Program-made: the position numbers and the translations under genes
From: Ignavibacterium sp.
Lineage (GTDB): Bacteria; Zixibacteria; MSB-5A5; GN15; PGXB01
NCBI GenBank assembly: GCA_020724775.1
Contig: DYGG01000008.1
Span: 1-64,000 of the forward strand
Length of the DNA: 64,000 bases
Direction: 5' to 3'
Part shown: positions 20,281 through 45,122 of the stretch, piece by piece
Position numbering within the stretch: position 1 is the stretch's first letter
How the letters are laid out: every line of letters starts with the position of its first letter
The notes under the pieces: model-generated
What the model was told of the DNA's origin: nothing
Seen by the model: the letters and a program-made list of their open reading frames with translations, nothing else
The model's database searches: none

Positions 20281-20321
20281 TTGCCCTCCTATAATTTTAC
20301 AATAATATACTATATGACTAT

Positions 20322-20367
20322 CTTACCCGCAATTGGGGGCGGGACCTCCTTTGTAGAGGAAAGTTAT
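20322..20367 (-). repeat. 46-bp exact repeat, copy 2 (dockerin gene 3' end)
   Basis: Second copy of the repeat at 18873-18918, again covering the C-terminal end of the dockerin module and the stop codon. Confidence 0.85.
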
Positions 20368-24835: not shown

Positions 24836-24838
24836 TGC

Positions 24839-24863
24839 TAAGTTTTATTGGTTCAATAAACTT
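24839..24863 (-). promoter_or_regulatory. Palindrome in the dtxR-feoA gap
   Basis: TTTATTG-GTT-CAATAAA is a perfect inverted repeat, extended outward by AAGT/ACTT with one extra base. It fills most of the short gap just before feoA. It may be an operator or an mRNA hairpin that masks the feoA start; there is no Fur-box resemblance. Confidence 0.4.
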
Positions 24864-24872
24864 TGGACAGGG

Positions 24873-25298: not shown

Positions 25299-25308
25299 CT
25301 CGAAAGTG

Positions 25309-25337
25309 ATAATATTAGACGATTCTAACTTTGTCAA
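25309..25337 (-). promoter_or_regulatory. Promoter of the dtxR-feoAB operon
   Basis: On the minus strand TTGACA (25337-25332), a 17-nt spacer and TATTAT (25314-25309) form a near-consensus sigma-70 promoter. The transcript would start around 25302, only a few bases before the ATG at 25298, implying a leaderless or nearly leaderless message. Confidence 0.7.
25315..25328. promoter_or_regulatory. Operator-like palindrome in the dtxR promoter spacer
   Basis: TTAGACGATTCTAA is a perfect inverted repeat (TTAGA/TCTAA, 4-nt centre) lying exactly between the -35 and -10 of the dtxR promoter. The TTAG...CTAA arms resemble DtxR/IdeR boxes. Autoregulation by the DtxR-like protein is the natural reading. 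Confidence 0.55.
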
Positions 25338-26830: not shown

Positions 26831-26832
26831 TT

Positions 26833-28494
26833 ATGAAACTTACCATAGGTTCACGCGGGAGCCAGTTGGCTCTCTATCAGGCTAATCTCATCAAGTCGTT
26901 TTTAGCCTCGCGGGATGTTGTTGCCGACATCAAAATCATCAAGACCACCGGCGATAAAATTGATTATCTGAGTTTCGACAAGATTGAGGGAAAAGGGTTC
27001 TTCACCAAGGAACTGGAGGAGGCGCTCCTTGCCGGTGAGATCGATTTAGCGGTGCATTCTCTAAAAGACCTTTCGACACAGATGCCTGCGGGATTAAGAA
27101 TCGGCGCTTACTGCAATCCTGAGGATCCCTCGGAATTGCTCCTGGTCCGACCGGAAGCCTTCGACGAAAATCAGAAGTTGTATATAAAGAGAGGGGGCAC
27201 TCTGGGGACAAGTTCGGTGCGGCGTCAGGCGCAGGCGGCATATTTTCGACCCGATCTTAGAATCGAGCCATTGCGGGGGAATGTTCCGACCCGTATTCAA
27301 AAATTGAAGGACGGCCGATTCGATGCCATCCTTCTGGCGCGGGCCGGGGTCGAAAGATTGCAAATCGATACTGGCGACCTGAAAAAAATCGTTCTCGACC
27401 GGTTTGAATTTATTCCGGCACCCGGACAGGGAATTCTGGCGATTGAAATCCGCGATAACGACCTGAGAACCGGTCAGATTGTTGCATCGTTGAATGAGCC
27501 TGACGCGGAAGCGACGGCAAAACTGGAACGGGGGCTTCTGGCTCGCTTTGATGGTGGCTGCCAGTTGCCGCTGGCAGTGACCTCAGAAAAAAGGGACGGC
27601 AAGTTCTTCCTTAGAGCCTTCCTGGGAAAGAAGACTTCTGAAGGATGGGGCAACCCGGCGCTCTTTGAAGGCGCTGCCCTTGAAATCGCCGAGATTCAGG
27701 AGATTGCTTACCGGGAACTTAGCGAAAATTCCTCCACAGGCCTGGGGAAAGAAAAAGTGAATGTCTTAATCACCCGCTCCCGGGAAGAAGCCGAGAGCCT
27801 GTTCGCGGAACTCTTCGGCAAACTCGAACCTGTCTATTACCCGGATTTCACTATAATTCCCAATTATGATTCAGCCCAACTACGTGATGTTTTTGACCGC
27901 CTGAACGATTTTGACTGGATAATTTTTACCAGCAAGAATTCCGTACGAATATTTGATAAGATTATTGAATATAATTCCTTGACCATAGACAGCAAAACGA
28001 GAATTGCCGCGGTGGGCAAGAAAACAGCCGAGTATCTCGAGTTCCTGGAATGGAAGGTTGCCTTCTATCCTATGGAAGAGAGTTCGCTGGGACTTTTGAA
28101 GGAACTGCCGCAGATAATTGACGGCGACCATAAGAAAATTTTACTTCCGCTCGGGCTGGAAGCGCCGGAAGTACTTCAAAACGGGCTGAAAGCGCTCGGA
28201 CATAATGTGCAGCGGATTAATATTTACCGAACGACTCCGGCGGCAAAAGAATCGCTACCATCTTTGGACAGCCTTTCAATTGATTATTATATTTTTACCG
28301 CCCCCCTTACTGTGAAGTTCTTCAAGGAACTCGGCAATCGATTGCCTCGCGATTCCTGGGTTGCTGCCATCGGAAAGCCGACGGCGGAGGCATTGCGGGA
28401 GCATTTTCGCGCCCCCGATTACATTCCCCGAAAAGCCGATTTATCAGAAATCATCGTGAAAATTCTGGAGAGGATAGATAATGGAAATATTTAA
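26833..28494 (+). CDS. hemCD: Fused hydroxymethylbilane synthase / uroporphyrinogen-III synthase
   Basis: A 553-residue fusion of two consecutive heme enzymes. Residues 1-300 are HemC: TIGSRGSQLALYQA at the start, the catalytic-loop VHSLKDL, the substrate-Arg block TSSVRRQAQ, and Cys243 in RFDGGCQLPLAV for the dipyrromethane cofactor. From about 306 (VNVLITRSREEA) to the end lies a HemD domain, with IIFTSKNSVRIF and the DYYIFTAPLTVKFF blocks. Fusion would channel the unstable hydroxymethylbilane to the cyclising enzyme. No frameshift is apparent: the linker is short and in frame. It overlaps hemB by 14 nt. Confidence 0.94.
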   Translation: MKLTIGSRGSQLALYQANLIKSFLASRDVVADIKIIKTTGDKIDYLSFDKIEGKGFFTKELEEALLAGEIDLAVHSLKDLSTQMPAGLRIGAYCNPEDPSELLLVRPEAFDENQKLYIKRGGTLGTSSVRRQAQAAYFRPDLRIEPLRGNVPTRIQKLKDGRFDAILLARAGVERLQIDTGDLKKIVLDRFEFIPAPGQGILAIEIRDNDLRTGQIVASLNEPDAEATAKLERGLLARFDGGCQLPLAVTSEKRDGKFFLRAFLGKKTSEGWGNPALFEGAALEIAEIQEIAYRELSENSSTGLGKEKVNVLITRSREEAESLFAELFGKLEPVYYPDFTIIPNYDSAQLRDVFDRLNDFDWIIFTSKNSVRIFDKIIEYNSLTIDSKTRIAAVGKKTAEYLEFLEWKVAFYPMEESSLGLLKELPQIIDGDHKKILLPLGLEAPEVLQNGLKALGHNVQRINIYRTTPAAKESLPSLDSLSIDYYIFTAPLTVKFFKELGNRLPRDSWVAAIGKPTAEALREHFRAPDYIPRKADLSEIIVKILERIDNGNI

Positions 28495-29461
28495 CCGTCC
28501 CCGACGTCTCCGTCAGAGCCAATTAGTCCGTGACCTCGTCGCTGATACCTCCGTTGACACGAGCAAGATGATTCAGCCCTACTTTATCTCCGAAAGTGGA
28601 ACCAAGAGAATCGAGATATTGTCCATGCCCGGCATCTATCGTGACCCGGCCGACCGATTTTTGGAATCGTTCTCTGCCGATTTTGACCTTGGCATCAACA
28701 AAATCATGCTGTTCGGGGTGGTCGAGCGCAAAGATGCCGTCGCTTCGGGAGCGGACCATGATACCAATCCGGTGATACAGGCAGCCCGTTCGCTCAAGGA
28801 GAAGTATGGCGAGAGGATTTTTGTGTCGGCCGACGTCTGCCTCTGCGAATATACCGACAGCGGTCACTGCGGTCTTTTGAGGGGGGAACGAATCGATAAC
28901 GACAGCACGTTGGAACGTCTGGGCGAGATGGCGGTGGCTCTGGTCAAAGCCGGGGTCGATTGTGTGGGACCCTCCGACATGATGGATGGCCGTATCGGAT
29001 TTATCCGACAGAAACTGGAGGAAGAGAATCTGACCGAGGCGATTATACTGGCATATACGGCGAAGTATGCTTCGAGTTATTACGGTCCTTTCCGGGATGC
29101 GGCCGAGAGCGCGCCGAAATTCGGCGACCGGAAAGGTTACCAGATGGATTTTCGCAACCAGAGGGAGGCGGTGCGGGAACTGGAACTTGACCTCGAAGAA
29201 GGAGCCGATATTGTTATGGTAAAGCCGGCGCTGGCATATCTGGACATCATCAAGACTTTCAAAGAACTCTCGCCGGTTCCGGTGGCAGCTTACAATGTCT
29301 CCGGTGAATATACCATGGCAAAACTTATGGCGCGCGAGAATATAGTTTCGGAGAGAGATATAGTTTTGGAGAACCTGACGGCGATTTTTCGCGCCGGCGC
29401 TGACATAATACTGACATATCATCTTCGTGACCTCCTCCAAAAGCGGTGGCTCCATGGGTAG
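28481..29461 (+). CDS. hemB: Delta-aminolevulinic acid dehydratase (porphobilinogen synthase)
   Basis: A 326-residue HemB that condenses two 5-aminolevulinates to porphobilinogen. Cys120, Cys122 and Cys130 in DVCLCEYTDSGHCG are the catalytic zinc ligands, so this is a zinc-type enzyme, not the Asp-rich Mg type. The Schiff-base lysines are Lys195 (LAYTAKYASS) and Lys248 (IVMVKPALAYLD). The C-terminus is standard. Its start codon lies within the end of hemCD, and hemL begins within its own last codons. Confidence 0.96.
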   Translation: MEIFNRPRRLRQSQLVRDLVADTSVDTSKMIQPYFISESGTKRIEILSMPGIYRDPADRFLESFSADFDLGINKIMLFGVVERKDAVASGADHDTNPVIQAARSLKEKYGERIFVSADVCLCEYTDSGHCGLLRGERIDNDSTLERLGEMAVALVKAGVDCVGPSDMMDGRIGFIRQKLEEENLTEAIILAYTAKYASSYYGPFRDAAESAPKFGDRKGYQMDFRNQREAVRELELDLEEGADIVMVKPALAYLDIIKTFKELSPVPVAAYNVSGEYTMAKLMARENIVSERDIVLENLTAIFRAGADIILTYHLRDLLQKRWLHG

Positions 29462-30737
29462 GAATTTCAGCAAGTCGCGAGCGCTTTTTCAGCGGGCAAT
29501 AAAGAGTCTCTCGGGCGGAGTAAATTCTCCGGTGCGGGCGTTCAAAGCGGTCGGCGGTTCGCCGCTCTATATCGAGCGGGGGGAAGGGGCTTATCTTTTT
29601 GACGTTGACGGCAACCGCTATCTCGATTTCTGCGGCTCCTGGGGACCGTTGATTCTGGGGCACGCGCATCCTGTAGTGCTGGAAGCGATTCAGAAAGCCT
29701 CGGAACGGGGCGCCAGTTTTGGCGCCGTGCATGAAGGAGAAATTCTTCTTGCCGAGAAGGTCAAGAAACTCTGTCCCCATCTGGAACTGCTCCGTTTTGT
29801 CTCCTCCGGCACGGAAGCGGTCATGTCGGCGATTCGTCTGGCGCGGGCTTTTACTAAGAGAAACAAGATTGTAAAATTTTCCGGCTGTTATCACGGCCAT
29901 TCCGACTATCTTCTCGCATCGGCCGGTTCCGGTTTGGTGACGTTTGGCATTCCCGCATCGGCCGGAGTGCCCGAAGATTTCACCCGGCATACCCTGGTGG
30001 CGCCCCTTGACGATGAACAGGCGGTAAGAGATTTTTTCCGCAAATTTCCGGATGATATTGCCGCCATTATAATCGAGCCGGTCCCGGCAAACGACGGTTT
30101 ACTGCTCCAGCGCCGTGGTTTTCTTCAGTTTCTCAGGGAAATCACTGCCGTCAACGGTTCGCTGCTTGTCTTTGATGAAGTCATCTCCGGATTCCGAGTA
30201 AGACCGGGAGGCGCTGCGGAATATTATGACATCAAGCCTGACCTGGCAACCTACGGCAAGATTATAGGCGGCGGATTACCGGTCGGCGCCTTTGGCGGCA
30301 GAGCCGATATCATGCAGTTATTAGCCCCGCTTGGTCCGGTCTATCAGGCCGGCACCCTCTCGGGCAATCCGCTGGCGATGGCAACCGGTCTGGCGACTCT
30401 GGAGTACCTTGAGAGAACTGACGGATGGAGCAATCTGGAATCTACTACCGGCGCGTTTGTCAAATTGTTGAATGATGAAACCTCCGACTGCGCCGTAAAT
30501 ATCCCCTCCCTCGGTTCTCTGTTCTGGATTAATCTTCAGAAGGAGCCGGTCCGACGGGCTGAAGATATTTCCAAAGATAACGCCGAGCGCTACAAAGGAC
30601 TTTTTTCCCGCGCTCTGGAGGCCGGTATCTATCTGGCGCCGTCAGCGTACGAGGTCGGCTTTATCAGCACGGCCCACTCCCGGGAAGACCTCAAATCGGC
30701 CGCCCGGTCACTGGGAGAAATCATCCGCTCACTTTAA
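29454..30737 (+). CDS. hemL: Glutamate-1-semialdehyde 2,1-aminomutase
   Basis: A 427-residue PLP enzyme making 5-aminolevulinate. The N-terminus FQRAIKSLSGGVNSPVRAF and the PLP-lysine Lys269 in ATYGKIIGGGLPVGAFGG are diagnostic. I use the ATG at 29454 (8-nt overlap with hemB); a GTG nine codons upstream would add a non-conserved extension. With HemA it forms the C5 route to ALA. A histidine kinase gene starts 6 nt after its stop. Confidence 0.95.
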   Translation: MGRNFSKSRALFQRAIKSLSGGVNSPVRAFKAVGGSPLYIERGEGAYLFDVDGNRYLDFCGSWGPLILGHAHPVVLEAIQKASERGASFGAVHEGEILLAEKVKKLCPHLELLRFVSSGTEAVMSAIRLARAFTKRNKIVKFSGCYHGHSDYLLASAGSGLVTFGIPASAGVPEDFTRHTLVAPLDDEQAVRDFFRKFPDDIAAIIIEPVPANDGLLLQRRGFLQFLREITAVNGSLLVFDEVISGFRVRPGGAAEYYDIKPDLATYGKIIGGGLPVGAFGGRADIMQLLAPLGPVYQAGTLSGNPLAMATGLATLEYLERTDGWSNLESTTGAFVKLLNDETSDCAVNIPSLGSLFWINLQKEPVRRAEDISKDNAERYKGLFSRALEAGIYLAPSAYEVGFISTAHSREDLKSAARSLGEIIRSL

Positions 30738-30743
30738 AACGAT

Positions 30744-32045
30744 ATGAGCCAGATAACCTCTTCATCTTCTCGTCGCGCCCTGATAATTTTCGTCATTCTG
30801 GCGATTCTTTTCTGCGCTCAGATGGCCTGGTGGATTATATTCCAGTATCGCTCTGCCGGCAGCGCACGCCGCTTTTTCAGCGAAATTCTGGAAGAACAGA
30901 GGAAGCAGACAATATCGCTGCTCAACACCCGTCTTTCCGCAGCCGGTAGGTCGCTTGAAGATTCAGGTTTAGAGCATAGCGGCGTTCGCTATGATATCAG
31001 CGATATCATCACAGGAATCGTTCCGGCTGAAAACCTCGTCCGCACCGACCTTACTGATTCGCTATTTTTGATTCGTGAGAAGGACGGGGCAAAGTTCTAT
31101 ATCTTCCTGAACAGAAATTATCCGCAGACAATGATTGCAGGGGATTCTCGTCTGCAGTATGCGCCACCGAGCGGAGAAGTCCTCCGGCTGGATTGGGTAA
31201 CTATGGAGCATATTGCGGTCAAGCCGGAGTCGTATAGCGAGATTGACGCCGAGCGGGAGCGGCATACGAGAATGTTCCTGATGGAGGGTTCTTTCTTTTT
31301 GGTGCTGATAGTTATCGGCGGATATATGATATTACTGTCACTGAAACGGCTCAAGCAAACGCGAGAGGAGCAACTTCTTTTTATCCACAGCATCACTCAT
31401 GAGTTGAAAATTCCGCTCACCTCGTTGAACCTTTTTCTCGACACCATGAGACGTCGCAATTTTGAGCCGAAACTGGTTTCGGAACTGGCGCCGAAGATGA
31501 AAGAAGACCTGGTGCGTCTGAACCAACTGATAGATAATATTCTTCAGGTGCGTCGCCTTGCCGACCGGCAGATGCAGATTCGAATGGAACGGGTTGACCT
31601 TTCCGCCGAGATTCGTCAATTCGGCGAAAGAATCAGGGAGCGGATTGAAGCCGCCGGTGGCAGACTTAAAATTGATGTCGCCGACAATATCAGGATTGAC
31701 GCCGCCCTTCCGGAATTAATGCGGGTTTGGGAACTTCTGATTGATAACTCGCTCAAATATGCCCAAAGCGTAGCGCTTGAAATAAACATAACCCTGAAAA
31801 ATACCCGGGATTTCGCCGAGATAATCTTCCGCGACAACGGTCCCGGAATCCCCTCCGGTATGGAGGAGAAACTGTTTGAGCCGTTTTATCGGGGGAAAAT
31901 TGAAGAGAAAAGAACCGTCCCCGGCTCCGGTCTGGGACTGTATATCGCTCGGGAGTTCATTCGGCGCCAGGGCGGGGCTATAAATATTCGGAACGGTCCG
32001 GCAGGGGGAGCGGTTGTAACAATGAAGTTTAAGGTGACGCCATGA
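30744..32045 (+). CDS. Sensor histidine kinase inside the heme operon
   Basis: A 433-residue membrane histidine kinase. Two membrane helices (about residues 11-33 and 181-201) enclose a periplasmic sensor region of about 145 residues without a family I recognise. The HisKA phospho-acceptor His219 lies in SITHELKIPLTSL; the ATPase domain has NSLKYAQ, DNGPGIP and GSGLGLYIA. It overlaps the response regulator by 4 nt. Its place between hemL and hemE, with coupled translation on the downstream side, suggests that it senses something tied to heme, redox or iron status, but the ligand cannot be read from sequence. Confidence 0.92.
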   Translation: MSQITSSSSRRALIIFVILAILFCAQMAWWIIFQYRSAGSARRFFSEILEEQRKQTISLLNTRLSAAGRSLEDSGLEHSGVRYDISDIITGIVPAENLVRTDLTDSLFLIREKDGAKFYIFLNRNYPQTMIAGDSRLQYAPPSGEVLRLDWVTMEHIAVKPESYSEIDAERERHTRMFLMEGSFFLVLIVIGGYMILLSLKRLKQTREEQLLFIHSITHELKIPLTSLNLFLDTMRRRNFEPKLVSELAPKMKEDLVRLNQLIDNILQVRRLADRQMQIRMERVDLSAEIRQFGERIRERIEAAGGRLKIDVADNIRIDAALPELMRVWELLIDNSLKYAQSVALEINITLKNTRDFAEIIFRDNGPGIPSGMEEKLFEPFYRGKIEEKRTVPGSGLGLYIAREFIRRQGGAINIRNGPAGGAVVTMKFKVTP

Positions 32046-32752
32046 GCGCCAAGAGAATCCTTCTGGTCGAAGACGAAAAGCATATCGCGGAGGGGATAAT
32101 TTTGAATCTCGAACAGGAAGGGTACGAAATTGTTTGGGCGTCTGACGGCAATCAGGCGCTGGAATATTACAGCCATGGAAAGTACGATTTGATAATTCTC
32201 GACATTATGCTCCCCGGAATAGACGGTCTGGAAGTCTGCCGCAGAATCAGAAACAAACTGGGAACGGAACCGATAATGTTTCTTACCGCCCGCGACAGCC
32301 TGGATGACAAGAAGGACGGCTTAACGATCGGCGCTGACGATTATATCACCAAGCCGTTCGATTTAGAAGAACTGATTTTGCGCATCAAGGCAATCTTTCG
32401 CCGACAGGCATGGCTTCGCACCGAGAGCGCGGTCGGCGACATCTATAAATTCCCCGGCGGCACCATTGATTTCAAAAAATTTTCGGCCGAGGGGCGAAAC
32501 GGAGTCTTTCGTCTTTCCAATAAAGAATCGCTGCTGCTAAAGCTTTTCACGGAGCATCCCGATGAAGTCCTGAGCCGCAGCGTCATTCTCGACGCCGTCT
32601 GGGGATACAACGCCTACCCCTCCAATCGTACCGTTGACAATTTCATCCTGCGCTTTCGCAAAAACTTCGAGCCGGACCCCTCTCACCCCATCTATTTCCA
32701 TACCGAGTTTGGCACCGGATACAAATTTACGCCGCGAGGAGAAGACCAATGA
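32042..32752 (+). CDS. OmpR/PhoB-family response regulator
   Basis: A 236-residue response regulator. The receiver domain has the acidic pair Glu10/Asp11, the phospho-acceptor Asp54 (LIILDIMLPG), Thr82 and Lys104 (YITKPF). The C-terminal winged-helix effector is of the OmpR type with VDNFILRFRKNFE and the final FGTGYKFTP. It overlaps both the kinase gene before it and hemE after it by 4 nt (ATGA), so it is embedded in the heme operon. Its target promoters are unknown. Confidence 0.94.
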   Translation: MSAKRILLVEDEKHIAEGIILNLEQEGYEIVWASDGNQALEYYSHGKYDLIILDIMLPGIDGLEVCRRIRNKLGTEPIMFLTARDSLDDKKDGLTIGADDYITKPFDLEELILRIKAIFRRQAWLRTESAVGDIYKFPGGTIDFKKFSAEGRNGVFRLSNKESLLLKLFTEHPDEVLSRSVILDAVWGYNAYPSNRTVDNFILRFRKNFEPDPSHPIYFHTEFGTGYKFTPRGEDQ

Positions 32753-33780
32753 CTAAAAGAGAACTTTTCATGGCTAACCTCGACGGTGAGTTTACAACGC
32801 GTGTTCCCATATGGATTATGCGCCAGGCGGGACGATACCTTCCCCAGTATCGGGAATTTCGCAGAAATATATCTTTTGAAGAATTGTGCAAGACTCCTAA
32901 GGCAGTGGCGGAAGTAACCGCCCAGCCGGTGGAAATTCTTGACCTTGACGCCGCAATCATATTCTCCGACATTCTATTTATTCTCGAGCCGCTGGGGATT
33001 GACCTTCGTTTCGACCCCGGTCCGATAATATCACCTTTCCTGGAGAAACCGGAACAACTGTCGCAGATGGCGGAATACGAACCGGAGAGTAAACTTCAGT
33101 TTGTTGCTGACGCTCTGCTTGAGACGCGACGTCGCCTGGGGAACGATATCCCCCTGCTTGGATTCTGCGGCGCCCCCTTCACGGTATTCTGTTATCTGAC
33201 CGGTATTCGCGGCGCGCGCGATTTCCATAAAACTATCAGATTCCTGACCAATTACCCCGATGAAAGCGCTCTGGTACTGGAGAGGCTGGCAAAACTGAGT
33301 ATCCGTTATCTGCGAATGCAGAGCGGCGCCGGCGCCGACGCCGTCCAGATTTTCGATACTTGGGCCGGGGAGTTAGGTGAAAAGGAATTTGCCGCTTGGT
33401 CATTCCCGTATCTGAAAATGATTATCGAGCAATTGGCGGAAGAAAATATCCGCGCCAGCCTTTATATTAAGGGGGCGTATCATCTGCTCGATTATATCCG
33501 GATACTCCCCGTCAATGTGGTCAGTCTCGACTGGAAGACACCGCTGTGGCGAGCGGCGGAATTGCTGGAGCCGAAAACTCTTCAAGGAAACCTCGACCCG
33601 CACCTCTTGCTGGGAAACCGGGATGTGGTTGTCAAGAGAGCCACCGATATTCTGCATGAAATGGCTGATTACTCCGGGTTTATATTCAATCTGGGGCATG
33701 GCATACTGCCTGATACCCCTGTAGAAAACGTCCGGGCATTAGTTGAAACTGTGCATTCTTTTGAAAGGACCAGGTCATGA
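32749..33780 (+). CDS. hemE: Uroporphyrinogen decarboxylase
   Basis: A 343-residue HemE that converts uroporphyrinogen III to coproporphyrinogen III. The signature PIWIMRQAGRYLPQYRE is at residues 19-35, and the GFCGAPFTVFCYL and FNLGHGILPDTPVENV blocks are intact. It is translationally coupled to the response regulator upstream and to hemN downstream (4-nt overlaps each). Confidence 0.96.
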   Translation: MTKRELFMANLDGEFTTRVPIWIMRQAGRYLPQYREFRRNISFEELCKTPKAVAEVTAQPVEILDLDAAIIFSDILFILEPLGIDLRFDPGPIISPFLEKPEQLSQMAEYEPESKLQFVADALLETRRRLGNDIPLLGFCGAPFTVFCYLTGIRGARDFHKTIRFLTNYPDESALVLERLAKLSIRYLRMQSGAGADAVQIFDTWAGELGEKEFAAWSFPYLKMIIEQLAEENIRASLYIKGAYHLLDYIRILPVNVVSLDWKTPLWRAAELLEPKTLQGNLDPHLLLGNRDVVVKRATDILHEMADYSGFIFNLGHGILPDTPVENVRALVETVHSFERTRS

Positions 33781-35174
33781 CGGAATTTCATGATTCGCAC
33801 CTTCCGGAAGCGCTGGTCAAGAAATATGACCGTCCGGGTCCGCGCTATACCAGTTATCCGACCGCCCCTGAGTGGAGCGACCAGTATGGACCGGAAGAGT
33901 ATGTCGCCGCCGTAAAAAACGCGGCAAAGGATATCAACGAGCCGCTTTCGTTCTATCTTCATATCCCCTATTGCCAGAAACGCTGCTGGTTTTGCGGCTG
34001 CAATACCATGGTTTCCCGCAATGTCAATGTCGCCGATGATTACCTCGGTCGAGTGGACCGGGAGACCGGCATGGTCGCAGAAATACTGGGGGAGCGCCAG
34101 AGTGTGTCTCAGTTTCACTGGGGCGGTGGCACACCATCATTCCTGACCGACAGTCAGACCATTCGCGCTTTCGAAATATTCTCCAAACGATTCAAACTTC
34201 TCCCTGACGCGGAGATTTCTATTGAACTTGACCCGCGGGTGACCGGTCAGGAGAGAGTTGTTCTTCTCAAGTCACTCGGTTTCAACCGCCTTTCTTTCGG
34301 AATTCAGGATTTCAATCATGAAGTTCAGGAGGCTATCGGGCGCAATCAGGATGAATCGCTCGGAATCGGCCTGTACGAGTTTGCCCGTAAGGAAGGATTC
34401 ACCGGAATCAATTTTGACTTAATTTACGGCTTACCCAAACAGACCATCGAAGGCTTTCGGCAGACTATCAGTAAAGTCATTACTCTTCGCCCCGACCGCA
34501 TTGCTCTTTACAGTTACGCCCATCTTCCTCAGGGAAAGCCGCATCAGAAAAAGATTGATACTTCTTCTCTACCGACTCCGGAGATAAAGGCGGAGTTGTT
34601 CGCTCAGGCGCGCCGGATGTTTATCGAAAGCGGATACCGTCAGATAGGAATGGACCATTTCGTTCTCCCCGGCGATGAACTGGCAATTGCCGCCTCGCAC
34701 GGAAAATTGCGTCGGAATTTTATGGGGTACACCGTCAATGCCGCCCGAGACTGGGTCGGGGTCGGAATGTCTTCCATCTCGTATATCAACGAAAACTTCG
34801 CCCAAAACCTCAGTGGAATTAACAGTTATTCCGAAGCGATAGATTCCGGCAAGTTGGCCACTTACCGCGGAATGAAATTGACTCGCGATGACCTGGTTCG
34901 TCAGCATGCCATTATGGAACTTATGTGCAATTTCCGCCTGGACCTGAATGAATCGAGCCGCCGTTTCAGTATAGACGCCGGCGCATATTTCGCCGAGGAA
35001 TTGCGTCAACTGGCCGGTTTTATTGACGACGGTCTTATTACAATCGAAAAGGGAATAATTGAATCTACTCCACTGGGGAAGGTATTTATCAGAAATATCG
35101 CCATGACATTCGACTACTATTTGAAAGCCGACCGACTCCAGAAACCAAAAGTGCAATTCTCGCGGACGATTTGA
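33777..35174 (+). CDS. hemN: Oxygen-independent coproporphyrinogen III oxidase
   Basis: A 465-residue radical-SAM enzyme that decarboxylates coproporphyrinogen III to protoporphyrinogen IX. The cluster motif is HIPYCQKRCWFCGCN, with Cys66, Cys70, Cys73 and the extra Cys75 that marks true HemN rather than the HemW/HutW relatives. The GGGTPSFL, ELDPR and DLIYGLP blocks follow, and the substrate-binding N-terminus (KYDRPGPRYTSYPTA) is present. The gene implies that heme can be made without oxygen. Confidence 0.95.
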   Translation: MTEFHDSHLPEALVKKYDRPGPRYTSYPTAPEWSDQYGPEEYVAAVKNAAKDINEPLSFYLHIPYCQKRCWFCGCNTMVSRNVNVADDYLGRVDRETGMVAEILGERQSVSQFHWGGGTPSFLTDSQTIRAFEIFSKRFKLLPDAEISIELDPRVTGQERVVLLKSLGFNRLSFGIQDFNHEVQEAIGRNQDESLGIGLYEFARKEGFTGINFDLIYGLPKQTIEGFRQTISKVITLRPDRIALYSYAHLPQGKPHQKKIDTSSLPTPEIKAELFAQARRMFIESGYRQIGMDHFVLPGDELAIAASHGKLRRNFMGYTVNAARDWVGVGMSSISYINENFAQNLSGINSYSEAIDSGKLATYRGMKLTRDDLVRQHAIMELMCNFRLDLNESSRRFSIDAGAYFAEELRQLAGFIDDGLITIEKGIIESTPLGKVFIRNIAMTFDYYLKADRLQKPKVQFSRTI

Positions 35175-35212
35175 GCGAGGAAAGGATATTTTTTTAGCGT
35201 GACGAGCGGCAG

Positions 35213-36181
35213 ATGAATCAATCCAAATCGAAAACAGCCATACTTTTGATTAATATGGGGGGAGCGTCCGACCTCACCAAGGTTCGACGATTCATGTTCA
35301 ATCTCTTCAATGACCCCCATATCATGAGCGCTCCACAGCCGCTACGGGCATTTGTAGCCTGGATGATAACGGCGGCGCGGACGCCGACTATTAAAGAGCA
35401 TTATCACGAAATCGGAGGCGGCTCTCCTCTTATGAAATGGACCAAACTTCAGGGGGATGAGACCAGCCGGCGCTTGAGCGGCCTGTACCCAGGAATAATA
35501 TCGGTGGAGGCATACAGTTATATTTCTCCCCGTGTCGAGGAGGCGATGGCCAATCTCCTGAATGAAGCGGTGCAGAAGATAATTGCGGTGCCGTTGTATC
35601 CCCATTATTCCATCGCCACCTTCGGGAGCATCCTGAGCGATCTGGAAAGAGCCCGTACCCGATTCAATCTCGGCGACAGGCTAAAAATTGTCGGACCGTA
35701 TTACAAGCACCCGCTTTATATCAAGGCGTCAGTAGAGATGATTCAACAGGCGCTCACGCAGATGGATTCCTCGCAACCTTTTCATCTCCTGTTCACCGCG
35801 CACTCGCTGCCGCAGTCTTTCATCTTGAAAGGCGACCCGTACCGCCTTCAGGTAGAAAAGACCGTTGCCCTGATTCTGAAAGAACTCCCGATAGAACACT
35901 GGAGTCTTTCCTTCCAAAGCAAGATTGGTCCGGTGGAGTGGATGAAACCATCCACTATAGAAAGTATCAAAGAACTTGGCGGTCGCGGGGTTCGCCAGAT
36001 CATAGTCACCCCGGTCGGATTTGTCTGCGACCATATTGAGACTCTTCACGAACTTGATATAGAATTACGCGAAATTGCCCACCAGGCCGGAATTGACCGT
36101 TTTGTCCGCGCTCCGGTCTTTAACGATAATAAGACCTTCATTGAATTGCTCGCATCCTGCGTTGAAGAATATCTGAAATGA
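35213..36181 (+). CDS. hemH: Ferrochelatase
   Basis: A 322-residue class I ferrochelatase inserting Fe2+ into the porphyrin. It has the blocks LLINMGGA, GGGSPL, the metal-site His in FTAHSLPQSF (near residue 197), SFQSKIGPVEW and the acidic FVCDHIETLHELDIE. No C-terminal Fe-S extension is present. Fe2+ for it could come from the divergently encoded FeoAB. It lies 38 nt after hemN and overlaps hemY by 4 nt. Confidence 0.94.
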   Translation: MNQSKSKTAILLINMGGASDLTKVRRFMFNLFNDPHIMSAPQPLRAFVAWMITAARTPTIKEHYHEIGGGSPLMKWTKLQGDETSRRLSGLYPGIISVEAYSYISPRVEEAMANLLNEAVQKIIAVPLYPHYSIATFGSILSDLERARTRFNLGDRLKIVGPYYKHPLYIKASVEMIQQALTQMDSSQPFHLLFTAHSLPQSFILKGDPYRLQVEKTVALILKELPIEHWSLSFQSKIGPVEWMKPSTIESIKELGGRGVRQIIVTPVGFVCDHIETLHELDIELREIAHQAGIDRFVRAPVFNDNKTFIELLASCVEEYLK

Positions 36182-37575
36182 CCCTGCGCAAGGTAGCCAT
36201 CATCGGCGGCGGTATAGCGGGATTATCGGCCGGCTTTTTTCTGAAGAGCCGACGTCGCAATGGCATTGAGATAACCATCTATGAGAGAGATAGCCGTCTC
36301 GGTGGGACTATCGGCGTCACCAGAGAGAATGGCTATATCGCTGACTGGGGACCGAATGGCTTCCTTGACCGCGAGCCGCTGACGCTTCAGTTTGTCGAGC
36401 AAGTCGGCCTGCGGCACCGGCTTCTCCCCTCCAACGACAAATCGGAAAAAAGATTTATCTACCGTAACGGCCGTCTCTGGGAAATTTCGGCGCACCCCGT
36501 GAAATTTCTTACCAGCGGCCTTCTTTCTCTTCGCGGTCGGCTACGCATCGGTCTGGAATATTTTGTCCCACCCAAGAAGAATGAAGATGATGAGTCGATA
36601 TTCGAATTCGCGGCGCGCCGAATCGGAAAAGAGGCGGCCGAAATCATGATTGACCCGATGGTTTCCGGGATATTCGGCGGCGATGCCCGGGCGCTCTCTT
36701 TGAAGTCATGCTTCCCGGTGATGGAAGAGATGGAAAAAAATTACGGCGGGCTGATTAAAGCGATGATTAAGAAGAGAAAAGAGAAGAAAAAACAGGGACA
36801 GCCGGGCAAGAGCGGAGCCGGAGGACCGACCGGACATTTGACCAGTTTTAGAGGCGGACTTTTTACTCTCATTGAATCTCTGGAGGAGAACCTCGGAGCC
36901 TCGATAGTCCGAAGTTGTGCCGTGAAGGAAGTGCTCCCCGGCAATTCAAGAAAGTACCGTCTGATTACTGATGTCGGGGACGCCGAATTTGACGATGTCA
37001 TTCTGGCGGTCCCGTCATATCACGCCGCCAGGATGCTCGGGGCAGTTTCCGCTCATCTGGCGAAACATCTTAGCCAGATACCATACGCCTCGCTCGCCGT
37101 GGTTTGCCACGGCTATCGGCGCGAAGATATCGCACAACCTGTGGACGGATTTGGATTCCTGGTGCCGTTCAACCAGCGCCTGGAAATTCTCGGCTCTATT
37201 TGGACGTCGATAATTTTTCCGGAGCAGGCGCCCGACGGACAGGTTCTCTTTCGCACCATGCTCGGCGGCTCCCGCAACAGTGAAATAGTCAGCGAAAGTG
37301 CCGCCAGTCTTGCCGATATCGCGCACCGCGCGCTTTCCGCCGTCATCGGTCTTAGAAAACCGCCGGTCTTCCTTAAAGTGATTCCCTGGAAAGAGGCGAT
37401 TCCCCAATACACCATAGGCCATAAAGAGCGAATGGCGGTTATTGAAAAAGAGTTGAAAGTTTTGGGGAATCTCTACCTTGCCGGCAACGCCTACAGCGGG
37501 GTGGGACTCAATGACGTTATCAAACGCTCGTTCAGCATCGTCGCATCAGTAGATGGCAATCTCGCTGCTGCCTGA
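36178..37575 (+). CDS. hemY: Protoporphyrinogen oxidase (HemY/HemG-type flavoprotein)
   Basis: A 465-residue FAD amine-oxidase-family protein with the dinucleotide motif IIGGGIAGLSAG at residues 8-19, the NGYIADWGPNGFL segment and the C-terminal FAD contact YLAGNAYSGVGLNDVI. It oxidises protoporphyrinogen IX using O2. In Firmicutes and Actinobacteria the same family oxidises coproporphyrinogen, but that route needs HemQ and no HemN; HemN here and no HemQ support the protoporphyrin pathway. A Lys/Glu-rich insertion lies near residues 195-215. Last gene of the heme operon. Confidence 0.92.
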   Translation: MTLRKVAIIGGGIAGLSAGFFLKSRRRNGIEITIYERDSRLGGTIGVTRENGYIADWGPNGFLDREPLTLQFVEQVGLRHRLLPSNDKSEKRFIYRNGRLWEISAHPVKFLTSGLLSLRGRLRIGLEYFVPPKKNEDDESIFEFAARRIGKEAAEIMIDPMVSGIFGGDARALSLKSCFPVMEEMEKNYGGLIKAMIKKRKEKKKQGQPGKSGAGGPTGHLTSFRGGLFTLIESLEENLGASIVRSCAVKEVLPGNSRKYRLITDVGDAEFDDVILAVPSYHAARMLGAVSAHLAKHLSQIPYASLAVVCHGYRREDIAQPVDGFGFLVPFNQRLEILGSIWTSIIFPEQAPDGQVLFRTMLGGSRNSEIVSESAASLADIAHRALSAVIGLRKPPVFLKVIPWKEAIPQYTIGHKERMAVIEKELKVLGNLYLAGNAYSGVGLNDVIKRSFSIVASVDGNLAAA

Positions 37576-37851: not shown

Positions 37852-40800
37852 ATGCTTGAGAAAACAAAGAATAGATTTTTCGCCGCGCCCAACATGATTC
37901 TCGTTGGAATCAGTCTGGGGCTTCTCTTCTGGCTTATCGACCCCTGCATTGACTACTTTCTTTTGGGGCGCGGCATTCTTCCGCATGATATCTTCAGCCC
38001 TTCTTCCGATGAAATCTGGTTCCGTTCCTTTGTATCTTTCATCTTCATCGTTTTCGGCTTCTATGTCGAATCAATCTCCACCCGGCAGAAAAAGGCGGAG
38101 AAACGTCTTGCGCAAACTGTGGCGATGCAGAAGGCGGCGTTTGAATCGGCCGCCGATGGCCTGTTGGTGGTGGATGAAGACCACAATATCGTTGAATACA
38201 ACCAGAAATTCCTGAATCTCTGGGGACTGACGGCTGAGGAGATGATAAGCGGTGACCCTAAGGCCATAGTTAAGAAAATGCTCGGTCCGCTGAAAAATCC
38301 CAACGCTCAGAAAGAACGGATAAAGACTCTTTATGACAACAAGTTAACCGACACTTACGACACCCTGGAATTGACCGATGGCCGCATTTTCGAGCAATTT
38401 TCTATCGCCCAGAAAATCGACAATGAAATCATAGGTCGTGTTTGGAGTTATCGCGAAATCACTCAGAAAAAACTGGTTGAGGAGGCACTTCGCCAGAATG
38501 AAAAACGATTCCGGGCGATTGCCGACTATACTTACGACTGGGAAAACTGGATAGGACCTGACAGCAAATTGATATGGGTGAACCCGGCCGTTGAAAGAAT
38601 CACCGGATACTCCATTCGCGAATGCCTGGAAATGCCCGATTACCCGCTGCCGTTGGTACACAAGGACGACCGGGCATTAATTAAAGAGGCCTTCTCTAAA
38701 GCAGCTGGGGGAGTTTGCGGAAATGACCTTCCCTTCCGGGCACGTCGTAAAGACGGCGCCGTTGTCTGGGTTGCGGTCTCGTGGCAGCCGATTTACGATG
38801 ACCATGGCCAATGCCTGGGACATCGCTCCACCATCCGCGATATCAGCGCCCGCAAGAAATGGGAAGAAGCGCTTGCCGAGAGCGAAAAATCGTATCGCAC
38901 TCTCGCCGAGAACCTTCCCGGCATCGTTTACCGACAGCCGCTGGGGAATCAGGCGCCGACTCAGTTCTTCAATAACATGGTCAGGAATCTGACCGGTTAT
39001 CAGATGTCGGAACTGCCGCCCGCGGAGTACTGCTCGCTGGAGAGCATTATTCTGGAAGAAGACCGTGAAGCGGTCAAGGAATCTCTGAGCGGGGCTGTCG
39101 CCAATGGGTTTGCTTTTATGCACGAATATCGTATTCGTCATCGTGACGGCCGCATCCGCCACTTTGTGGAGCGCGGCGTGCCGATCTATGACGCTTCCGG
39201 AAAACCGCTGCATATTGACGGCGTCATTTTTGACATGACCGACCAGAAGCAGGCGCAGACTCGGATTGAAGATAATGAAAAGTTTCTGAATACGATATTC
39301 CACGGGATTCAAGACGGCATCTGCGTTCTCGACAAGAACCTGAATATCATCCGTGCCAATAGCGCCATGGAAAGATGGTATGAGCACCGGATGCCTCTGG
39401 TCGGGAAGAAGTGCTTTCATGCCTTTCAGGGTCGCGACCGCGCCTGTAATGTCTGCCCCACCGCCCGCGCTTTCCAGACTCTGAGACCGGAGGTGGACGA
39501 AGTCCCCCTGACCGGACCTGACGGCATCGAAGGGTGGATTGAGCTGCACGCCTTTCCGCTGATAGACCAGTCCGGAGAAACCATCGGTGTGGTCGAATAT
39601 GTTCGCAATATCACCGACCGCAAGAAAGCCGAGGAATCGCTTCGCGAGAGCGAAGAAAAATTCCGCGTCATTTCCGAACAGAGTATGCTCGGTATCATGA
39701 TAATTCAGGACGATATCATTAAATATGTCAATAATCCGGTTGCTCTGGCGATAGGCAAGACACCCCAAACGCTCACCGGCGCCTCCGTCAAGGAACTTCT
39801 GACGTTCATTCATCCCGAGGATAGCCTGTTCGCCCAGGAGCAATTGGCTAAAAAGCAGCGCGGCGAAACCGATGTCGTACAGCATTACAAGTACCGTCTT
39901 GTCCTGCCTGACCAGAGAACAATGTGGGTCGAGCAGTTCTCCAAGTCGATTCAGTACGGGGGACGCTGGGCCGACCTGGTTACGATAATCGATATCACCG
40001 AAAATCACCGGGCATTGAACGCCCTCAAAGACAGTGAGGAGCGGTATCGCAAACTGGTCGATTCCGTCTCCGACTACATCTATACTCTGAACTTTCTCGA
40101 CGGTAAGCCGGTTGTCAGCAATCATGGTCCCGGGTGCGAAAGTGTGACCGGTTACAGCGCCGATGAATTTGAGCGCGACCCGCAACTCTGGAGCCGTATC
40201 ATTCATAATGAAGACCGCGAGATAATTCAAAATCATCTCGATAAGATTCGCCGCGGAGAGGAAACCGAACCGCTGGAGCACAGGATTGTGCACAAGAACG
40301 GACAGGCCCGCTGGGTCAAGAACTCGGTGGTAGTGCGCAGAAACCCTGATGGAAAGATAGTTTCGTACGACGGTCTAATAAGCGATATTACGGAGCGCAA
40401 GGGGGCCGAAGAAGCCCACCTCGAAAACGAGAGACGCCTCAAAGTCAAACTCGATTTCATTCTCTCCCCTGAGAAAAAAATCGAAAGCATAAGTCTGCTC
40501 GACTTGATCGACCTGGATGAATTGCAGAAAATTCAGGATGCCTTCGCCACCGCTTGCGATGTGGCGTCAGTCATTATCGACTTGGAAGGGAATTCTATAA
40601 CCAGACCCAGCAATTTTCGCGATATCTGCCGTCTGGTGGGGCAGACCGAAGTAGGGGGTCGTCGGTGCCGCGAATCGAACATCAAACGCGGCGAGATGTC
40701 CCGTCGGGAAATGAAGCCGGTCTATCAAAAATGCCTCAGTTGCGGTTTTGTAGATGCCAGCGCCCCGATAATTGTCGCCGGAGTTCATGTCGCCAACTGG

Positions 40801-43800
40801 CTGATGGGGCAGTGCAATGCACTGGGGGTGACCCACGAAGAAATCAAACAGTTTGCCGCAGAGGTAGGAGCGGACCAAGCCCGCGTATTGGAGGCCTTTG
40901 ACAAGACCTCCCCCGTTCCTCTGGAGCAGTTCGAGCGGACGCTCAATCTCTTGTGGTACCTGGCACGGGAACTTTCCACGCTCGGTTACGGCAACTTGCT
41001 GCTGGCGCGCGATAACGCCCGCCTGCGCCAGATAGAACAATCGGTGCATGACAGCGAAACAAAACTACGCACAATATTGACATCCGCTCCGATAGCCATA
41101 GGCCTTGTCAAAGACCGTGTCATCCAATGGGTAAACGACCATATGCTCAATATGGTCGGATATACCGGCGAGGAATTGATAGGCCGAAGCAGCCGGATGC
41201 TCTACGAATCGGAGGAAGAATTCCAGCGAGTCGCGGAAATCAAGTACGGCCAGATAAAAAAGGACGGCACCGGTGAAATTCAAACCAGGTGGAAACGGAA
41301 AGACGGTTCGCTTATCGACGTTTATCTCCGCTCGACAGCGCTTGAAAAAGGTGACCTCTCGGCGGGAGTCATCTTTACCGCCCTCGATATTACCGAGCGG
41401 CTCAAGGCTGAAGATTCTCTCAAAGAAAGCGAGCAGAGATTCAAGTCCCTTTTCGAATCGGCCCCTGACGCCATCTTTCTAATGGATGCCGAGGGGAAGC
41501 TTATTGATGGCAATGCCGCTACGGAACGACTTACCGGCTACAATCGAAGCGCTCTCACGGGAAGGTTATTTACCGAATGCAATCTTCTTCCGGAAAGTGA
41601 TCTGAACCGCGCCTTTGCAAACCTGAAGAAGAATCTGGAGGGCGACCCCTCAGGACCGGATGAATATATGTTACGACGAATCGACGGCGCCACCATTCCG
41701 ATCGAATTCAGCACCTATCCGATTCGACTCGGTAATCAGCATCTGATAATAGGGATTGCCCGCGACCTCTCTTTCCGCGTTCAGTCCGAAATGGCGCTTC
41801 GCGAAAGCGAACGGAGACTGTCGGTACTTCTCAGCAACCTGCCCGGCATGGCGTACAGCTGTCTGAATGACCCGGAATGGACCATGCTGTTTGTTTCTGA
41901 AGGGGTCAATGAACTTACCGGTTATTCCCATGATGCCTTTCTCAATAATAGGGATTTGAATTACTCGCAAATCATACATCAGGATGACCGTGTCCGCGTC
42001 TGGAATGAGATTCAAACGGCTCTTCAGGAAAAAGCCCCGTACCGTCTTACCTATCGCATCATTGCGGCCGATAGCCGATGCAAATGGGTCATGGAACAGG
42101 GACGAGGTGTTTTTGACGAATCCGGCAAATTGCAGTTCCTGGAAGGTTTCATTATTGATATTACCGACCGGATTACCGCCCAGCAGTCGATTCAGGCGGA
42201 GCGCGACCGGGCGCAAAAGTATCTTGATATCGCCGGCACCATGATCGCCGTTCTAAATCGCGACATGACCATCGAGTTAATCAATAAGAAAGGATGTGAA
42301 GTTCTCGGCTGGAACGAAGAGGATATCCTCGGCAAGAACTGGTATGACTTCTGCGTTCCTCCGGAAAATCGTGAGGAGCGGCGCAGGCGGGTCAAGCAAA
42401 TCTTTGACGGCGAAATTCCCTTCCCAGAATATAGCGAAAACTTAGCCCTGACCCAGGACGGACAGGAGCGGATTGTCGCCTGGCATAATATCCCATTGCG
42501 CAATGAAAGCGGTAATATTGTCAAAGTAATAAGTTCCGGAGAAGATATTACGGAAAGACGGCAGGCTGAAGAGACCCTTAAACTGACCCAATTTTCCATT
42601 GACCATGCTGTGGATGCGGTTTTCTGGGTTGAACCGGACGGGCGATTGTCATATGCCAATACGGCGGCCTGCAGCGCTCTCGGCTTCAGTCCATCGGAAC
42701 TTCTGTCCCTCTCCATTCTGGATATCGAAGCCGACCTCAGTTCCGAAGATTGGGCGCGCCGCTGGAATCAGGTGCAGAGCGCCCGCTTCATGTCCACCAA
42801 TTCCAGTTTCCGTCGTAAAGACGGCACTCTTTTCCCGGTTGACGTTACCTTTAATTATCTGGAGTATGAAGGAAGAAGCCATCTTTTTGCGTTTGCCCGC
42901 GATATAAGCGAGAAACGAAGAATCGAGGAAGAACTTTTCAAAGCCAGCAAACTTGAGTCTATCGGCATTCTTGCCGGCGGCATCGCCCATGATTTTAATA
43001 ATATTCTTACCGCCATCATCGGCAATATTTCTCTGGCGATGCTCGACCTTTCGGAAAACGAGGAACTTTTGCGCCGTCTGGCGGATGCCGAAAAAGCCTC
43101 CCTGCGGGCGCAGGAACTGACTCAGCATCTGCTTACTTTCTCCCGCGGCGGCGCTCCGGTAAAAAAGACCATTCATATCGAGGAACTGGTCAGGGAGTCG
43201 GCTACTTTCGCCATCCATGGCTCCAAGGTCCGCTGCGAATTTATCTTTGAGCCCGACTTATTTGCAGTTGAAGTCGATGCGGGACAACTCAGCCAGGTAA
43301 TTCATAATCTGATTATCAACGCCGACCAGGCGATGCCGCAGGGGGGAGTCATCAAGGTGAAGGCGCGGAATGTCGTTGATTCAAACTCCCTGCCACCGTC
43401 ACTCAAGCCCGGAAAATTCGTAGAAATTATCGTTGCCGATTCCGGCATCGGTATTCCGCCGCAACATCTTCCCAATATTTTTGATCCGTTCTTTACCACC
43501 AAGCAGAAAGGCAGCGGGCTGGGGCTGGCGACGACCTACTCTATAATCAGTAAACATGACGGCGTCATCGAGGTCGAATCGGCGGTTGATGTCGGCACCA
43601 CTTTCAGAATTTATCTGCCGGCGTCAAACAGGTCAGCCGAAGACAAAGCGGGCGAATCAGATATAGCGGTACGGGGCTCCGGGCGAATACTGATTATGGA
43701 CGACGATGAATCAATCCGAATGGTGGCCGGGATTGGACTTTCTGAACTTGGTTATGAAGTCTCCTTTGCCAACGATGGCGCCCGCGCCCTGGAAATGTAC

Positions 43801-44070
43801 AAGAACGCCATGAACACTGCGCCTTTTGATGTCGTCATTATGGACTTGACAGTTCCGGGCGGAATGGGAGGGCGCGAGACAATCGCCCAGTTGCGTCAGA
43901 TTGACCCCCATGTTGTCGCTATTGTATCCAGCGGTTATTCCAATGACCCGGTGATGGCAAAGTATGAAGAGTTTGGTTTTAGGGGATTTGTGCCAAAACC
44001 GTTCCGAATTCAGAAACTGAGTCAGGTAATTAGTGAAGTACTTGGCGGCAAAGCACGGGTCAGGACCTGA
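37852..44070 (+). CDS. Giant multi-PAS hybrid histidine kinase with PocR domain
   Basis: About 2072 residues. Two membrane helices near residues 15-75, then eleven PAS-like units that I can mark by their SEExFRxL...GY pattern: six before and five after a PocR sensory domain at about 862-1064 ([19 protein letters not shown], later CLSCGF). The fourth PAS carries [16 protein letters not shown], a cysteine pattern seen in some redox/metal PAS domains. The kinase core has His1713 in [16 protein letters not shown] and [12 protein letters not shown]; a C-terminal receiver has Asp1998 (IMDLTVPGG). The ATG at 37852 is used; an in-frame GTG lies at 37837. Neither has a clear Shine-Dalgarno. Signal and output unknown. 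Confidence 0.92.
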
Positions 44071-44140: not shown

Positions 44141-44608
44141 TCAGCCTTGTCCTTTTTTGTCAAGCGGAGACTGACGCAATTCCTCCGGCAAGACTATGGG
44201 CGGCTTCTTAATTCCCAAATGCCGCTGGTACCATTTCCACTTTTTCTTCTCCCCTTTAATGAACTTCTTCAGCGCTTTTTCCCGTTCATAAAGCGCCGCG
44301 TCGTATTTTTCAATCTTCTGAAGAAGATTTTCGATATTTTCGCGCCGTTCCAGGGCTACTCTAAAGGTCTCGTAATCTTTGAAATTGAAGAGCGACTGCA
44401 CCACCGGCTCGAAAAAAACCATCGTCTGCGCCCCGATATAATTGAGCGGCTTGACCGATTCCAGGAAAACTATTGCCGGTACCGACATCCGCCACTGAAC
44501 GACCTTGATGGCGACCTTTTCCAGAACGGCATCCTCTTCCTCCGGAATTGCCTGGCTCTTTTCCGGCATTTCGCCCGGATTGCTACTTAGTCCCATCTTT
44601 GCCTTCAT
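44141..44608 (-). CDS. Conserved-looking hypothetical protein, coiled coil
   Basis: A 155-residue cytoplasmic protein without recognised family. Residues 25-80 look globular (VVQWRMSVPAIVFLESVKPL, then IGAQTMVFFEP); 85-130 are strongly charged and helical (ALERRENIENLLQKIEKYDA), probably coiled coil, and the tail is basic. It overlaps the membrane-protein gene upstream by 26 nt (14 nt if the second ATG at 44596 is used), so the two are coupled. Last gene of the long minus-strand run; convergent with the giant kinase. Confidence 0.65.
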   Translation of the reverse strand: MKAKMGLSSNPGEMPEKSQAIPEEEDAVLEKVAIKVVQWRMSVPAIVFLESVKPLNYIGAQTMVFFEPVVQSLFNFKDYETFRVALERRENIENLLQKIEKYDAALYEREKALKKFIKGEKKKWKWYQRHLGIKKPPIVLPEELRQSPLDKKGQG

Positions 44609-45122
44609 CCAGCGGTCTCTTAGTGATTCGTTGACTTATAAAGGAAGTAACATCTTCGCGGTTATTCCCGAACCGAATATAAACCCCCCGGAAATTCTCC
44701 AGGCGGGTGGGACGAACAAAAGGGGACAGAAGAACGCCATTCTTATCGGGATAGAAGGAACGGTACTGTGACCAGCGTTTGCGAAGAGTCTGGGTGGTCG
44801 TTTTTATCTCAACACCTTCGTCATCCAGACGATATCGTGTCGGGAAATAAAAAGCCGCCAGTGACGCATATAATATGACAAAAGCCAGCACCGTAAAGAA
44901 AACCGACTGCGTCAGAGCGTAAACAATTACTACAAGAACCAGCAGGAAGACAGTTACCACCACCGTGATTTTCATGTTCCTCTTAGCCGGGTGGCTGACC
45001 CATTCCAGAACATGACTTTTTTCCAGAGTGTTTCCGTCATCTGGTGTTGACGATGACGAAATATCGGAAGACAAATCCAGCGAAATCTGTTCTGGTTTTT
45101 TCTCCGATGACACTACTATCAC
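44583..45122 (-). CDS. Small two-helix membrane protein, PH-like tail
   Basis: A 179-residue protein: an acidic Ser-rich N-terminus, two adjacent membrane helices at about residues 50-92, and a C-terminal beta-rich part beginning YRLDDEGVEIKTTTQTLRKR and SQYRSFYPDKNGVLLSP, which resembles bacterial PH-like membrane proteins but is not a confident match. It overlaps both neighbours (4 nt upstream, 26 nt downstream), so it is probably produced with them. Function unknown. Confidence 0.65.
   Translation of the reverse strand: MIVVSSEKKPEQISLDLSSDISSSSTPDDGNTLEKSHVLEWVSHPAKRNMKITVVVTVFLLVLVVIVYALTQSVFFTVLAFVILYASLAAFYFPTRYRLDDEGVEIKTTTQTLRKRWSQYRSFYPDKNGVLLSPFVRPTRLENFRGVYIRFGNNREDVTSFISQRITKRPLDEGKDGTK

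Follow-up and report, generated by a model that had tools for sequence, protein, structure and literature searches.

Introduction

PocR (PF10114) is described, in the excerpts of two reports available to us, as a domain with which histidine kinases of Methanosarcina and other archaea sense signals, in genomes whose kinases are mainly PAS- or GAF-based (PMC5847659, PMC11784639); according to papers that cite the original proposal, the domain was predicted to bind small hydrocarbon derivatives such as diols (Anantharaman and Aravind 2005). Here we analyze a giant histidine kinase encoded in a 64,000-nucleotide stretch of DNA from Ignavibacterium sp. (positions 1 to 64,000 of contig DYGG01000008.1, assembly GCA_020724775.1; GTDB lineage Zixibacteria), which we call the window. 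The kinase likewise carries PF10114 as a predicted sensor; unlike its archaeal counterparts it is bacterial, combines eleven PAS units with a PocR domain in mid-chain, has a membrane anchor and a C-terminal receiver, and lies in a haem-gene neighbourhood. It is a new kinase of a known kind; PocR histidine kinases and multi-PAS frames are already known.

The second group for comparison is the hybrid kinases of the CckA/ArcB type, with which the window kinase has in common PAS units, a HisKA-HATPase core and a C-terminal receiver. A CckA model aligns with residues 1680-2064, and its score for the whole protein, 286.6 bits, is far below the cut-off of 1000. ArcB carries its own HPt domain, and CckA acts through ChpT.

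We favour, with moderate confidence, the reading that the gene product is a hybrid histidine kinase anchored in the membrane, which integrates several cues from the cytoplasm and has a tie to haem/iron or redox physiology. At the sequence level, the anchor, sensor chain, core and receiver are intact, selection acts on the whole protein, and the site after hemG is shared in part of one family. A kinase lineage beside haem genes, together with a separate two-component pair in the haem operon, gives work on haem regulation in this little-studied phylum a testable starting point.

Architecture and conservation of the kinase

The gene is a single intact open reading frame whose coordinates, strand and frame were confirmed (Table 1); an in-frame GTG at 37837, upstream of the ATG, would extend the protein to 2077 residues. 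Two predicted N-terminal membrane helices are followed by PAS1-6, PocR, PAS7-11, HisKA, the ATPase and the receiver, and from the topology thus predicted the anchor would place the sensor chain in the cytoplasm. Eleven PAS stretches were found in a TIGR00229 scan, and a PAS model built from the kinase itself also yields 11 units, six N-terminal and five C-terminal of PocR. The PF10114 match between PAS6 and PAS7 is full-length (residues 884-1046, profile positions 1-162 of 162, E 3e-43, 147.8 bits against a cut-off of 23.9), and HisKA (1707-1768), HATPase_c (1809-1925) and the receiver (Response_reg, 1946-2060) all score above their Pfam cut-offs. The catalytic residues H1713 (in HDFNN), D1998 and K2049 are in place, and by its domains and predicted phospho-accepting residues the protein is a hybrid sensor histidine kinase.

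These results agree with an earlier note on this DNA, which had described a kinase of about 2070 residues with eleven PAS units, a central PocR domain and a terminal receiver. Its remark that this is one of the largest kinases was too strong: relatives of 2165, 2162 and 2025 residues occur in the same lineage, which rules out size as an exceptional trait, and large frames with many PAS units are not uncommon among the phylum genomes scanned. The two longer relatives (2162-2165 residues) are haem-linked and have a different sensor chain that is without CxxC.

An orthologue of 2064 residues with identical domain order and 88% identity is present in a same-genus genome (G001). Over 2060 codons the two genes differ at 7.7% of first, 4.8% of second and 35% of third positions; because the differences concentrate at the third position, we take the whole kinase to be under purifying selection and to be a real gene, and the pattern rules out a chance or decayed frame. 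PAS4 carries the pattern C521-x10-C532-x2-C535 plus C491, and all four residues are retained in the orthologue, as are C902, C926, C939, C961, C964 and C988 of PocR; in this comparison 12 PAS6 positions are missing or unread in G001. This retention argues only weakly for the importance of these residues, because 22 of the 23 listed cysteines of the whole kinase are retained.

Linkage to haem genes

The giant kinase is the next gene after hemG, by which we mean the protoporphyrinogen oxidase gene (TIGR00562), with 276 bp between the end of hemG and the kinase ATG. The earlier note had seen no adjacent response regulator, which holds for the immediate neighbours; the same haem cluster does, however, contain a sensor kinase and OmpR-type regulator pair, 5.1 kb upstream of the giant kinase. 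Because the giant kinase closes this haem biosynthesis cluster with its two-component pair, it is not an isolated orphan.

Among 45 other genomes with a hemG match, 24 were read; the contig of G027 ends at hemG, leaving 23 informative loci, three of which (G014, G006 and G004) offer only 1.8-3.3 kb of downstream sequence. A kinase of this lineage directly follows hemG in 4 of the 11 other genomes of the window's family and in none of the 12 outside it. In all four (G001, G004, G007 and G013), it has the same anchor and core lineage and lies on the same strand. A kinase-core tree of 36 rows, from which short and contained duplicate sequences had been removed, unites the haem-linked cores of these genomes and the window with those of G010, G002, G021 and G049 in one clade (support 100/99), and the anchors of the G004, G007, G013 and G010 kinases are 43-57% identical to that of the window kinase, G004 being at 43%. 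The clade member in G002 is divergent from feoB at a distance of about 1 kb. In the window itself, feoB and an iron-dependent repressor gene (22453-25337) lie upstream of the hem genes and divergent from the haem cluster, so that genes for iron uptake and iron regulation adjoin those for haem synthesis. The position after hemG in four other genomes, the feoB-linked member and the feoB-repressor genes of the window support the proposed tie to haem and iron.

The two-component pair inside the haem cluster has a distribution of its own. By tblastn similarity, both genes are found in 11 of the 24 other hemG loci and the regulator alone, at the locus edge, in one; the pair is absent from seven in which the hemL-hemE interval is visible, and the interval is not visible in the remaining five. 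It spans at least three families and is likely a haem-operon two-component system.

Several observations weigh against a functional tie between the giant kinase and haem. The linkage is absent from 7 of the 11 other same-family genomes and from all 12 outside the family, and it may be a single inherited adjacency. The two-component pair occurs in haem clusters that have no giant kinase, and the haem-cluster regulator therefore has a kinase of its own. The 276-bp gap holds no clearly conserved block beyond the genus. Both the CxxC motif and PocR are absent from the haem-linked kinases of G007 and G013, so neither the cysteine triad of PAS4 nor PocR defines a haem-linked function.

It is possible, if doubtful, that the protein is a generic hybrid kinase with many PAS units, which expanded through tandem duplication and PAS swapping and whose site by hemG is historical and uninformative on function. 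Sensor chains within the core clade differ freely, comprising 11 PAS and PocR (window, G001), 12 PAS and GAF (G007, G013), 11 PAS and GAF (G002), 7 PAS (G010), or 4 PAS and an insert of some 160 residues with no domain assigned (G004, whose contig ends within the kinase). When haem-linked relatives from different genera are compared, few of their PAS units pair up as reciprocal best matches, and 19 of the 23 informative hemG loci lack the linkage. One PAS of the G004 kinase shares 63% identity with PAS4, against 43% for the anchor of that kinase, and PAS4-like units at 47-54% identity occur in kinases of G117, G060 and G049. Because the chains of the clade differ and the G007 and G013 kinases are without CxxC, PAS4 and PocR appear to be exchangeable modules and not a defining trait of the haem-linked kinase. 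What a generic kinase explains less well is that anchor, core and site after hemG are kept together across three genera, despite identities as low as 60-63% for hemG and 32-40% for the best segment of the kinase.

The G049 kinase (L141, 3257-8824) consists of two abutting frames of 835 and 1016 residues, with PAS in both and the core in the second; it may be a gene that has been split, an artefact of assembly or two separate proteins.

A three-cysteine PAS group

We define a three-Cys PAS group by cysteines at positions 43, 54 and 57 of our alignment A1, usually as C-x10-C-x2-C, and PAS4 of the window belongs to it. When 132 phylum genomes were scanned, 28 of the 30 matches returned as loci (the window included) had Cys at all three positions; the matches were ranked by similarity to a Cys-containing query, which favours Cys-bearing ones. 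Alignment A1 holds 29 of these 30 rows, L119 having no tblastn row. Its members range from 23 to 87% in identity to the window; across them C43 and C57 (C521 and C535), N25 and P91 are invariant and C54 (C532) nearly so. The earlier note had proposed that the cysteine pattern, which is indeed present, could hold a metal or sense redox, and had named its loss in close homologues as the outcome that would speak against this; G001 keeps every PAS4 cysteine and 28 of the 30 phylum matches have the triad. As a trait of the kinase, the cysteine PAS is conserved in relatives but is neither specific to this kinase nor present in the haem-linked G007 and G013.

The 328 distinct PAS domains from all loci comprise 46 with the full triad, 12 with one or two of the cysteines and 270 with none. 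The choice of loci biases how many triads are counted, but it has no obvious effect on how scarce partial sets are. Among 188 PAS domains from loci other than L095-L124 and L200-L230, 8 have the full triad, 5 a partial one and 175 none, some of these loci having also been fetched because of PAS4 matches. Exact C-x10-C-x2-C spacing is found in 34 of the 46 triads, the others being spaced 10/6, 11/2, 12/2, 9/2 or 15/3. Together with the phylum matches, the 46 triads rule out that the motif is private to the giant kinase. A second kinase of the window's genome (L071, contig C4) has two tandem three-Cys PAS units.

All 13 genomes searched outside the phylum match the PAS4 profile, and their 59 distinct PAS domains (L200-L230) include five triads: one exact, in a planctomycete (L200, from the genome that also holds L003), three of the form C-x10-C-x6-C, two of them in a Lamprocystis genome and one betaproteobacterial, and one spaced 15/3; the interrupted archaeal case described next is not part of this count. 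The wider C-x10-C-x6-C form, seen in PAS domains of L144, L201, L214 and L229, is perhaps a sister version of the motif. A plasmid of Methanohalobium evestigatum (NC_014254.1; L230, 3001-3360) encodes a PAS relative with 42% identity and the exact motif (KKC...PCDQCP), which the annotation splits at an in-frame TAG directly after the third Cys (CDQCPT*RAF); in this member of the Methanosarcinaceae the TAG may encode pyrrolysine instead of breaking the frame. The triad is thus nearly all-or-none in this PAS group, frequent in an uncultured phylum, present also in a planctomycete and a methanogen, and wider-spaced in proteobacterial genomes.

The AlphaFold model of PAS4 is an ordinary PAS fold with a predicted local distance difference test score (pLDDT) of 95.4, and its 50 best PDB folds are mostly PAS domains of LOV proteins, DosP and NifL, LOV folds leading the list. 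In the model the triad runs from the beginning of a helix into the loop that precedes the following one, and probably faces the cofactor side, as in LOV and haem PAS domains. The PAS4 profile matched 61 PDB sequences; in four (2pr5, 6rhg, 2mwg and 4gcz) of the five alignments examined, C521 aligns with the LOV photoreceptor Cys, which in YtvA and other LOV structures lies in a GKNC/GRNC segment, and the triad is absent from all five. The adduct segment of LOV domains is GxNCRFLQ. Unlike LOV domains, PAS4 reads FHAFQG and not RFLQ after this Cys and has two further cysteines; with only the adduct position in common, we rejected PAS4 as a LOV domain.

The three thiols at the cofactor face would most likely form a metal, iron-sulfur or redox site. 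One tentative candidate is zinc in a structural role, or a redox switch made of the thiols, in either case with no iron-sulfur involved. In the portions of the sources available, WalK is described as having a zinc site in a cytoplasmic PAS that regulates the kinase (PMC6624279), with ligands that differ from the PAS4 cysteines, and ArcB as reading the quinone pool with two PAS cysteines (PMC4601167).

That PAS4 senses oxygen with a [4Fe-4S] cluster, as NreB does, is unlikely. The two have in common a Cys cluster, including CxxC, in a PAS domain of a histidine kinase, and the window PAS4 has four cysteines, the number by which the PAS of NreB is described, in the part of the source available, to bind its cluster (PMC4601167). 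NreB is, however, a small cytoplasmic kinase with four Cys, and the window kinase a giant membrane-anchored hybrid with three conserved ones: the C491 position is Cys in only 5 of the 30 aligned matches, and no fourth ligand is conserved among the three-Cys relatives in the alignment. The cysteines of NreB are spaced as two CxxC pairs, an arrangement that PAS4, with one CxxC pair plus C521 and C491, does not match.

No description of a cysteine, three-Cys or CX10CX2C PAS group was found in the literature searched, whose coverage excluded most subscription papers, and this is not proof that the group is undescribed. The 'three conserved cysteine' phrase met for Azoarcus AccS refers, in the part of that paper available, to quinone-reactive cysteines of a kinase fragment, with no tie to the PAS4 motif found there (PMC6456745).

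The PocR domain

In eight aligned PocR domains, from which matches shorter than 120 residues had been dropped, C926, C939, C961 and H979 are invariant, together with a GQ pair. The AlphaFold model (pLDDT 92.9) is GAF/IclR-like, with a best Z of 11.3 and 2.6 Å over 121 residues; the 50 structural matches span Z 9.2-11.3, many of them tied, and include DhaR (Z 9.2). The PocR profile had no match among PDB sequences at E up to 1, a phmmer search of the PDB with a PocR stretch yielded no more than two weak matches, both to unrelated cyanovirin, and Foldseek with the model gave nothing at E 0.001 or better, so that the GAF/IclR assignment comes from a single structural comparison. Given this predicted fold, PocR most likely binds a small organic ligand; a metal at the Cys3-His set is a second possibility.

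Output and proposed mechanism

The window's genome has 39 receiver and 29 HATPase_c profile matches; its only Hpt match lies in an 818-residue CheA-like frame that also bears HATPase_c, and all four HPTransfase matches, one of them over the cut-off, overlap HATPase_c domains. Unlike for ArcB and CckA, no dedicated HPt partner, stand-alone HPt or separate ChpT was detected by this profile search of a genome that is 95.7% complete, in which diverged HPts could be missed. The absence of a phosphotransfer gene beside the kinase, as the earlier note had it, thus stands, and its suggested check for orphan HPt genes returned the CheA-like one only. Because this is the only detectable HPt in the genome, an HPt phosphorelay from the kinase is unlikely, and we rejected output through a detectable HPt or ChpT.

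In the mechanism that we propose, each PAS and PocR would read a small molecule or cofactor, and its state would travel along the linkers as far as the dimer helix that bears HDFNN; H1713 would then be phosphorylated and pass the phosphate to D1998. As there is no detectable HPt besides the CheA-like one, most likely either the receiver would serve as a local brake or sink, or the kinase would signal to a response regulator encoded elsewhere; one candidate, by neighbourhood only, is the OmpR-type regulator of the haem cluster. On this view the triad would act in metal binding or redox sensing, and the kinase would control haem genes.

Highly improbable, and made slightly more so by the thin spread of the triad outside the phylum, is a more specific proposal. 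In it, three-Cys PAS domains would be a separate uncharacterised subfamily, from bacteria to archaea, with the three thiols placed where LOV domains face their cofactor and forming a metal site with an exchangeable ligand, such as an iron-sulfur cluster in which one iron is open. In this lineage, such a domain and the Cys3-His PocR would signal the state of iron, haem or redox to a kinase that is anchored at the haem operon and feeds its OmpR-type regulator.

Other features of the window

Table 1. Coordinates of the kinase, its domains and the adjoining haem genes (window positions unless given as residues of the kinase)
Feature	Location	Strand	Basis
Upstream haem genes: hemA, fused hemC-hemD, hemB, hemL	25541-30737	+	
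Sensor kinase (433 residues) and OmpR/PhoB-type response regulator (236 residues), within haem cluster	30744-32752	+	
hemE, hemN, hemH, protoporphyrinogen oxidase	32749-37575	+	TIGR00562 for oxidase
Hybrid sensor histidine kinase, 2072 residues	37852 (ATG)-44070 (stop)	+	Open reading frame, Pfam, NCBIfam
N-terminal membrane anchor, hydrophobic stretches at about residues 8-38 and 54-77	37852-38109	+	Predicted
PAS1-PAS3	38110-39252	+	TIGR00229, own PAS model
PAS4, three-Cys PAS; C491, C521, C532, C535 (codons 39322, 39412, 39445, 39454)	39259-39627	+	
PAS5-PAS6	39643-40401	+	TIGR00229, own PAS model
PocR; C926, C939, C961, H979 (codons 40627, 40666, 40732, 40786)	40501-40989	+	PF10114
PAS7-PAS11	41038-42942	+	TIGR00229, own PAS model
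HisKA (H1713 in HDFNN; codon 42988) and HATPase_c	42943-43629	+	Pfam
C-terminal receiver; predicted phospho-acceptor D1998 in VVIMDL	43678-44043	+	Pfam
PAS1 to PAS6, individually	Residues 93-210, 215-338, 343-469, 475-594, 599-721, 727-853		Own PAS model
PAS7 to PAS11, individually	Residues 1067-1187, 1192-1313, 1318-1444, 1451-1573, 1579-1692		Own PAS model

A promoter scan of the hemG-kinase gap gave three promoter-like sites against 0.9 expected, which is not informative, and the same scan found no terminator there; an Rfam scan of the window returned two tRNAs only. Two small genes without a Pfam or NCBIfam match (44141-45122) are convergent with the kinase; their counterparts in the same-genus genome show 91% and 83% identity. 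Further away, at 15646-22269 and 56871-58811, the window encodes several probably secreted proteins with similar C-terminal, dockerin-like tails of the form GDVNxSGxxNILDxTYLIxxLYKxGP.
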